The position numbers and the translations under genes are program-made. A DNA stretch of 27,239 nt from a virus: IMG/VR virus record IMGVR_UViG_3300025436_000108, positions 1 through 27,239 of that record. One strand, given 5' to 3'. Under the pieces are notes generated by a model. It was not told the DNA's origin, did not search any database, and saw only the letters and a list, made by a program, of their open reading frames with translations. Below, piece after piece: positions 28 to 957 of the stretch (positions within the stretch are counted from its first letter, which is position 1; every line of letters starts with the position of its first letter).

Positions 28-957
28 ATGCCAGCGTCCCCACAGCTTGAACTCGCCCCTGACAATGCCGCTGGCATGGTTGGCAGCGATGCCTTGTTCT
101 CTGTCTTCGATTTGTTCAGCGGCATTGGCGGCTTCGCGCTCGCTACCGAGTGGGCGGGAGGGAGAACAATGGCGTTCGCGGAAGTGGCTGCATATCCATC
201 GAAAGTGCTGGCGGCATGCTGGCCTGAAATCCCAAACCTCAAAGACGTAACCAAAATCTGCCGAAGAATCTATGACTGCGAACCCTGCCCAGATGATGAT
301 GAACTTGTGTGGTGTCTCCGATGCCAAGCCGAGTTTGGAGAATGCGAGTGTATCGGAACCGATGAGTTCACGGACACGTATGGCTGGCCTGATGTTATTG
401 CGGGAGGCGTGCCGTGCCAGCCTGCAAGCCTTGTCGGGAAAAGGCGTGGAACTTCTGACGAAAGATGGATGTGGCCGGATACCCTCAGAATCATTCGCGA
501 GTTGGAACCCCGATACGCAATCCTGGAAAATCCACGGGCGATCATCTCTCTGGAAGGAGGAAGCGCGTTCAGAGGAATCCTCGGAGCCTTTGCCGACCTC
601 GGGTATGATGTGCAATGGGATGTTGTATCCGCTTCCGCGCTTGGTGCAGGCCATCGACGCGAAAGACTCTGGATTCTGGCTTCCCACGCCAATCGCCCGC
701 GACTGGAAGGACACGCCAGGAATGGCCAAAGCTCAGGGAGAGCGGAAGCGCGAAGACACCCTGCCCCGCAAAATCTACGCGAGAGAGAAATCACCTCCGA
801 AAAGTGGTATCATCAATCCGGCATTCGCCCTGTGGTTGATGGGCTACCCGGATCAGTGGCTAAAGACCAATTGACCGCCGTTGGCAATTCCTTGGTCCCG
901 CAAGTCGCGCTGACTTGGCTCCAGGGTATCGCCGCTATGTTTTCAGAGAACGCCTAG
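28..957 (+). CDS. DNA (cytosine-5-)-methyltransferase
   Basis: A 309-residue C5-cytosine methyltransferase that transfers a methyl group from S-adenosylmethionine to cytosine in a target DNA site. Visible motifs in order are motif I FSGIGGF (about residues 27-36), the catalytic Pro-Cys-Gln of motif IV (P129-C130-Q131), the ENP/R form of motif VI (E167-N168), motif VIII RRERLW (210-215) and motif X GNSLVPQVA (286-294). The variable target-recognition stretch between VIII and X is short, as in many phage enzymes. The chosen start has no Shine-Dalgarno sequence; an in-frame ATG at 76 is the alternative. No restriction endonuclease partner is visible, so the likely role is self-protection of phage DNA or regulation (inference). 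Unusually, bases 272-874 are also open in a second frame that resembles a separate phage protein family (see the next entry). Enzyme class is certain; target sequence is unknown. Confidence 0.95.
   Translation: MPASPQLELAPDNAAGMVGSDALFSVFDLFSGIGGFALATEWAGGRTMAFAEVAAYPSKVLAACWPEIPNLKDVTKICRRIYDCEPCPDDDELVWCLRCQAEFGECECIGTDEFTDTYGWPDVIAGGVPCQPASLVGKRRGTSDERWMWPDTLRIIRELEPRYAILENPRAIISLEGGSAFRGILGAFADLGYDVQWDVVSASALGAGHRRERLWILASHANRPRLEGHARNGQSSGRAEARRHPAPQNLREREITSEKWYHQSGIRPVVDGLPGSVAKDQLTAVGNSLVPQVALTWLQGIAAMFSENA
272..874 (+). CDS. alternate-frame ORF inside the methyltransferase gene, MTase-associated phage protein family
   Basis: A 200-residue ORF lying wholly inside the methyltransferase gene in a different plus frame. 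It is not a random shadow by appearance. It carries, in order, SWK (84-86), SGMM.NG (110-115), a LPTP box (137-140), ARDWKD (142-147), DTLPR (162-166) and NPAFALWLMGYP (182-193). I recognise this series from phage proteins found next to or fused with C5 methyltransferases, typically with a WPTP..ARDWK segment and an ending like NP.F.EWLMG.P..W. That recognition is from memory and not from a search. The frame is closed by TAA at 248-250, so translation must start at ATG 272 or at the ATG run from 293. No strong ribosome binding site is visible. It may be a target-recognition or accessory subunit, but function is unknown. The alternative is that methyltransferase codon constraints mimic the family. 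Confidence 0.55.
   Translation: MTANPAQMMMNLCGVSDAKPSLENASVSEPMSSRTRMAGLMLLREACRASLQALSGKGVELLTKDGCGRIPSESFASWNPDTQSWKIHGRSSLWKEEARSEESSEPLPTSGMMCNGMLYPLPRLVQAIDAKDSGFWLPTPIARDWKDTPGMAKAQGERKREDTLPRKIYAREKSPPKSGIINPAFALWLMGYPDQWLKTN

Follow-up and report, generated by a model that had tools for sequence, protein, structure and literature searches.

A gene nested in the +1 frame of a phage C5-cytosine methyltransferase very probably encodes the second subunit of the same enzyme

The 27,239 nucleotides of viral DNA analysed here (IMG/VR record IMGVR_UViG_3300025436_000108; the whole stretch is referred to as the window) contain a C5-cytosine DNA methyltransferase (MTase) ORF, here called alpha, with a second ORF, beta, nested inside it in the +1 frame. 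We consider it very probable that beta encodes the beta subunit of a C5 MTase made of two chains, as M.EcoHK31I is. A nested two-subunit C5 MTase is already known in M.EcoHK31I, and the window pair is a further case of that kind. The features of the pair are listed below, all on the plus strand.

28 to 957, plus strand: alpha, C5 MTase ORF, 309 aa, frame 0 (PF00145 match, motif alignment)
106 to 135, plus strand: alpha motif I, FDLFSGIGGF (sequence, alignment)
403 to 420, plus strand: alpha motif IV, GGVPCQ, with the catalytic cysteine (sequence; P129 and C130 invariant)
526 to 534, plus strand: alpha motif VI, ENP, which is ENV in most relatives (sequence; E167 invariant)
655 to 681, plus strand: alpha motif VIII, RRERLWILA (sequence; R211 and R213 invariant)
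868 to 912, plus strand: alpha motif X, QLTAVGNSLVPQVAL, frame 0 (sequence; G286 and N287 nearly invariant)
272 to 874, plus strand: beta ORF as first listed, 200 aa, +1 frame (ORF, PHROG_1008 match, shuffle test)
380 to 874, plus strand: likelier extent of beta, 164 aa, from a putative start at ATG 380 near alpha motif IV (onset of the stop-free zone in relatives; ATG at the same place in L010 and others)
680 to 724, plus strand: start of the predicted target-recognition region of beta, LPTPIARDWKDTPGM, +1 frame, beginning at the end of alpha motif VIII (alignments; profile match to the in-frame recognition region of single-chain MTases)
815 to 859, plus strand: predicted motif IX of beta, NPAFALWLMGYPDQW, +1 frame (conserved residues given below; aligns to the segment before motif X of single-chain MTases)

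A preliminary description of this DNA had reported an ORF of 200 codons with the features SWK, SGMM.NG, LPTP, ARDWKD, DTLPR and WLMGYP; all of these were found, the second as SGMMCNG. The ORF starts with ATG, occupies precisely 272-874 (+) and is read in +1 with respect to the 309-aa MTase ORF. Alpha matches PF00145 with E = 4.5e-34 and 118.8 bits (cut-off 22) and also matches PHROG_363. In the motif alignment, frame 0 contains motifs I, IV, VI, VIII and X and is without motif IX, and the stretch between VIII and X is short and variable, with little target-recognition region. In monomeric C5 enzymes one chain carries both a target-recognition region (TRD) and motif IX; alpha, with little of the former and without the latter in frame, would be a half enzyme, not a classical monomer.

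Beta gave a significant profile match to PHROG_1008 (E = 1.7e-21, 78 bits, residues 25-160), and searches of Pfam and NCBIfam with beta returned no match. A PDB profile search with beta found nothing, and the AlphaFold model of beta alone was poor (pLDDT 60, pTM 0.22) and matched no PDB entry; neither the poor model nor the empty PDB profile search counts against the subunit reading. Starting at the end of alpha motif VIII, beta carries LPTPxARDWKDTPGM, and at its C-terminal end it has a motif IX-like LNPxWxEWLMGxPxxW in which N182, P183, W188, L189, M190, G191, P193 and W196 are near-invariant, although parts of both segments served as search patterns for the first set of relatives and the apparent invariance there is biased accordingly. 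In relatives found otherwise the C-terminal segment is kept and ARDWKDTPGM is replaced by other sequence, as expected of a predicted target-recognition region. The division of the predicted motifs between the alpha and beta frames is clear from these alignments: beta overlaps the catalytic half of an enzyme and itself holds what aligns as the recognition region and motif IX of that enzyme. Because it carries the two parts absent from alpha, beta would be the second subunit of the same enzyme. The assignment of the nested product to a phage family in the preliminary description was thus borne out by the PHROG_1008 match, but its picture of a separate gene merely found beside C5 MTases was not.

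The conserved part of beta probably begins downstream of ATG 272, near alpha motif IV, because the stop-free zone across relatives begins about there. Position 272 is likely to be too far upstream as a 5' end, and ATG 380 is the candidate start. Calculated ribosome-binding-site energies picked out no single beta start, and no clear site was found at the beta start.

Homologous segments are not confined to nested genes: they also occur fused in frame and in genes that overlap only in part, so that the absence of homologues outside overlaps, which would have spoken against the nested gene, does not apply. In MTases of Gordonia and other actinobacteriophages (Bibwit, L206-L215), an LPTP...LNAAFAEWMM segment lies in the MTase frame directly before motif X; it is the same segment before motif X as in the window, but in frame with the catalytic domain. 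The nested-family profile aligns to this in-frame TRD-IX part of the single-chain phage MTases with a probability of 97.45% and E = 9e-12. An AlphaFold model of one of them (L215) matches M.HhaI end to end (Z 21.0, 241 residues, rmsd 3.9), with confident catalytic and C-terminal parts and a low-confidence recognition region. In most of the single-chain MTases L206-L215, a +1 fragment, 100-183 codons long, is retained across motifs VI-VIII. In Gordonia phage Bibwit (L003), the annotated coding sequence of the MTase is a join that skips an HNH endonuclease insertion, which is probably the ShiLan element (PMC11855218).

In the phage records examined, the nested-ORF homologue overlaps a C5 MTase in the +1 phase, as it does in nearly every one of 80 IMG/VR loci found via the nested protein; two of these (L029, L076) have no MTase match, the beta match being at the contig end, and in a third (L070) the MTase match lies apart. 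The same phase was thus kept in the relatives whose phase could be read. Since the first loci had been found with the nested protein, which brings ascertainment bias, the test was redone on loci retrieved by MTase alignment alone. All 79 MTase relatives obtained in this way had a +1 match; within the MTase, the +1 frame was open for 134-457 codons at its longest. Among 59 non-redundant loci, every one had zero +1 stops from 80 codons before motif VIII through its end, and the +1 frame stayed open for another 40 codons past motif VIII in all 57 testable loci, whereas synonymous shuffles predict 15-31 open loci per segment. Over a 110-codon stretch the +1 frame was open in 57/57 non-redundant loci, against 3.56 stops expected per locus, so that the frequent stops among MTase homologues that would have spoken against a gene are absent. 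Further upstream, openness was at chance level (16 loci observed, 18 expected). Stop counts in the other four frames, +2 and antisense included, were near expectation in the 57 loci, and an Enterococcus MTase of the classical single-chain type, which has motif IX in frame and serves as a negative control, had numerous stops in +1. Two antisense ORFs of the window, 13-729 and 270-794 (-), look incidental, antisense stop counts in relatives being near expectation.

The substitution pattern points the same way. The ratio of third- to first-position changes of alpha is 2.0 before the nested ORF and 3.0 after its stop, and it falls to 0.9, 0.7 and 0.8 in three segments from motif VIII to the beta stop. 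Between the window and L010 (80% identical), the 64 codons from motif VIII to the beta stop differ by 24, 9 and 6 changes at positions 1, 2 and 3, respectively, versus 19, 7 and 49 in the 98 codons of the preceding part. Constraint in both frames had been proposed as a check, and after motif VIII the +1 frame is in fact the more constrained of the two. Upstream of about 60 codons before motif VIII, substitutions show little constraint on the nested frame, yet it is open. At the level of sequence, these patterns demonstrate that both frames are under selection and that the overlap is conserved; the nested +1 ORF behaves as a real gene under selection, and the proposal that the DNA for MTase motifs IV-VIII also encodes a second protein in an alternate frame is supported.

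Three other explanations were weighed against a separate beta subunit. In the first, programmed frameshifting would yield one chain, with motifs I-VIII read in frame 0, the recognition region and motif IX after a shift to +1, and motif X perhaps after a second shift back. The +1 recognition segment starts exactly at the end of motif VIII (position 680 versus 681), the +1 substitution evidence is strongest after that motif, and a single chain would give back the classical motif order. However, two shifts are needed if motif X is to be included, and M.EcoHK31I has been reported as two polypeptides (PMC3404938). The +1 frame is also stop-free from about 80 codons before motif VIII in 59/59 loci, with 15-28 expected per segment, which shifting does not require, and frame 0 stays open across the recognition region; since the +1 frame is open well upstream of the needed shift and frame 0 remains open where it would be left, we regard frameshifting as unlikely. 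In the second explanation, beta would be a phage protein in its own right, perhaps an inhibitor, a regulator or an accessory factor, whose gene overlaps that of the MTase by chance. The N-terminal part of beta (SWK, SGMM.NG) is indeed without known homologue beyond PHROG_1008 and without structural match, but beta holds the MTase pieces that alpha is without, its C-terminal half is fused in frame to the MTase in actinobacteriophages, and no locus of sufficient length showed it without an MTase, all of which makes an independent protein very unlikely.

Synonymous shuffles bear on the third explanation, in which the +1 family would be an echo of conserved MTase residues and codon usage, with no second protein. 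Scored against profiles of the beta family from which near relatives were left out, the native +1 product of the window reached 175 bits, compared with 58 +/- 10 (maximum 92) for synonymous shuffles of the MTase, and just 1.3% of such shuffles of the window MTase codons left the +1 frame stop-free. Shuffles that preserve the MTase protein do average 42-73 bits against the beta profile in most loci, so that part of the signal, mainly over motifs VI-VIII, is echo, but the native score lies above every shuffle, and far above the shuffle maximum, in 20/20 loci tested, the openness of the +1 frame is matched by neither the +2 nor the antisense frames, constraint after motif VIII is stronger in the +1 frame and other MTases have the same segment in frame, which leaves an echo extremely improbable overall and, for the part after motif VIII, refuted by the synonymous-shuffle and stop-codon tests.

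With beta taken as a separate subunit, the enzyme may be pictured as follows. Alpha is most likely translated whole, to give the domain for AdoMet binding and catalysis together with motif X, and translation of beta would begin at a separate start close to alpha motif IV, with ATG 380 as the best guess and 272 as a possible alternative. The two products would then associate into one C5 MTase, in which beta would supply the target-recognition region and motif IX and so set the DNA target; alpha and beta would have to join to methylate a specific sequence. The phage would probably use this methylation for self-protection of its DNA against host restriction. Replication, packaging and integrase genes surround the alpha/beta pair, and no restriction enzyme was recognised among the phage genes scanned, which suggests an orphan MTase for self-protection.

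Several other genes of the window were noted. A tyrosine recombinase (phage integrase) at 2378-3349 (+) lies just downstream of the MTase region. The terminase large subunit ORF (894 aa, 5465-8149, +) has a Hint domain match (PF13403, residues 564-599), which suggests that it contains an intein. A single ORF of 4715 aa at 9276-23423 (+), with inorganic pyrophosphatase (PF18823), LPD3 and RadC-like JAB domains, is a giant polyvalent phage protein; it is followed by an SU10-type portal protein (PF23899) at 24207-26312 (+), a gene order that is unusual relative to the terminase.

The +1 pair was also found in bacterial genome contigs, in 14 genomes out of a sample of 369 from the class to which a Pseudomonas MAG belongs (phase read), on Lacticaseibacillus, Acinetobacter and cyanobacterial plasmids and on one archaeal plasmid (Methanomethylovorans). 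By these matches, annotation greatly understates how widely the nested arrangement is spread among phages, plasmids and bacterial genomes; our literature search found no survey of C5 MTase nested overlap. The division of motifs varies between loci. In four of them (L006, L216, L217, L232) a +1 beta with LPTP repeats stops before motif IX, which lies in the alpha frame with X, and in another group (L220-L224 and L263, the latter Euratis gp33/gp34) the arrangement is AquI-like, alpha ending soon after motif VIII and the +1 ORF adding the recognition region, IX and X beyond. It is tempting to speculate, though we are close to evenly divided and lean slightly against, that nested alpha/beta C5 MTases form an ancient and very widespread overlap class with target recognition read in +1 relative to the catalytic-subunit gene, that the recognition/IX module has moved repeatedly (nested, AquI-like split, single-chain fusion, TRD-only beta) and that most annotation overlooks beta.

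Many of the small 'DNA cytosine methyltransferases' annotated in phages, plasmids and prophages are probably half enzymes. The annotated half cloned alone is expected to be inactive, and a specificity predicted from that half would be wrong. The alpha/beta overlap is long, nested and on the same strand, its partner is of known kind, it is deeply conserved and it has natural single-frame relatives, so that it offers a good system for how overlapping genes arise and come apart. What is notable here is the breadth, from phages, plasmids and bacterial genomes to an archaeal plasmid, together with the variable way in which the motifs are shared out between the frames.

Nested pairs with both genes annotated in GenBank are found in Paenibacillus phages Shelly (gp55 and gp56, the latter 'g55 internal gene') and Leyra (gp61/gp62). 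In Escherichia phage K1ind2, ORF29 and ORF28 are nested and annotated in GenBank as 'putative C-specific methylase' and 'putative Mte8-like protein'; MTE8_ECOLX is presumably the UniProt name of M.EcoHK31I. K1ind2, Shelly and Leyra share with the window the nested alpha/beta arrangement, a +1 beta and an LNPxxxxxLMGxPxxW ending, and are distant in sequence. Compared with the window alpha, K1ind2 ORF29 (L258) is without much of the motif I-IV segment. A plasmid search for M.EcoHK31I relatives returned alpha/beta pairs and no identifiable EcoHK31I locus. Lee, Kam and Shaw reportedly described, in 1995, an M.EcoHK31I alpha of 309 aa with a beta of 176 aa nested in an alternative frame; the window alpha has the length so reported for the large subunit, and the window beta, like the small subunit so reported, is nested in another frame.

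From its published description, M.EcoHK31I consists of two polypeptides, the larger with motifs I-VIII, X and a predicted TRD and the smaller with motif IX (PMC3404938), and the window pair is likened to it on that description by the same I-VIII+X / IX division. The two differ in that the TRD is predicted in the large subunit of M.EcoHK31I (PMC3404938), whereas a conserved TRD-like segment lies in beta here, which counts against the reading, and in that M.EcoHK31I (YGGCCR) is part of a restriction-modification system, whereas the window pair would be, among the genes scanned, a phage orphan enzyme. M.AquI is a C5 MTase divided differently from M.EcoHK31I, into a catalytic polypeptide and a recognition polypeptide (PMC3404938). 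M.AquI and Streptomyces phage Euratis gp33/gp34 resemble the window pair in having catalytic and recognition polypeptides with the latter in the +1 frame, but, unlike in the window, their small subunit also has motif X and overlaps the large one slightly (by 32 bases in Euratis).
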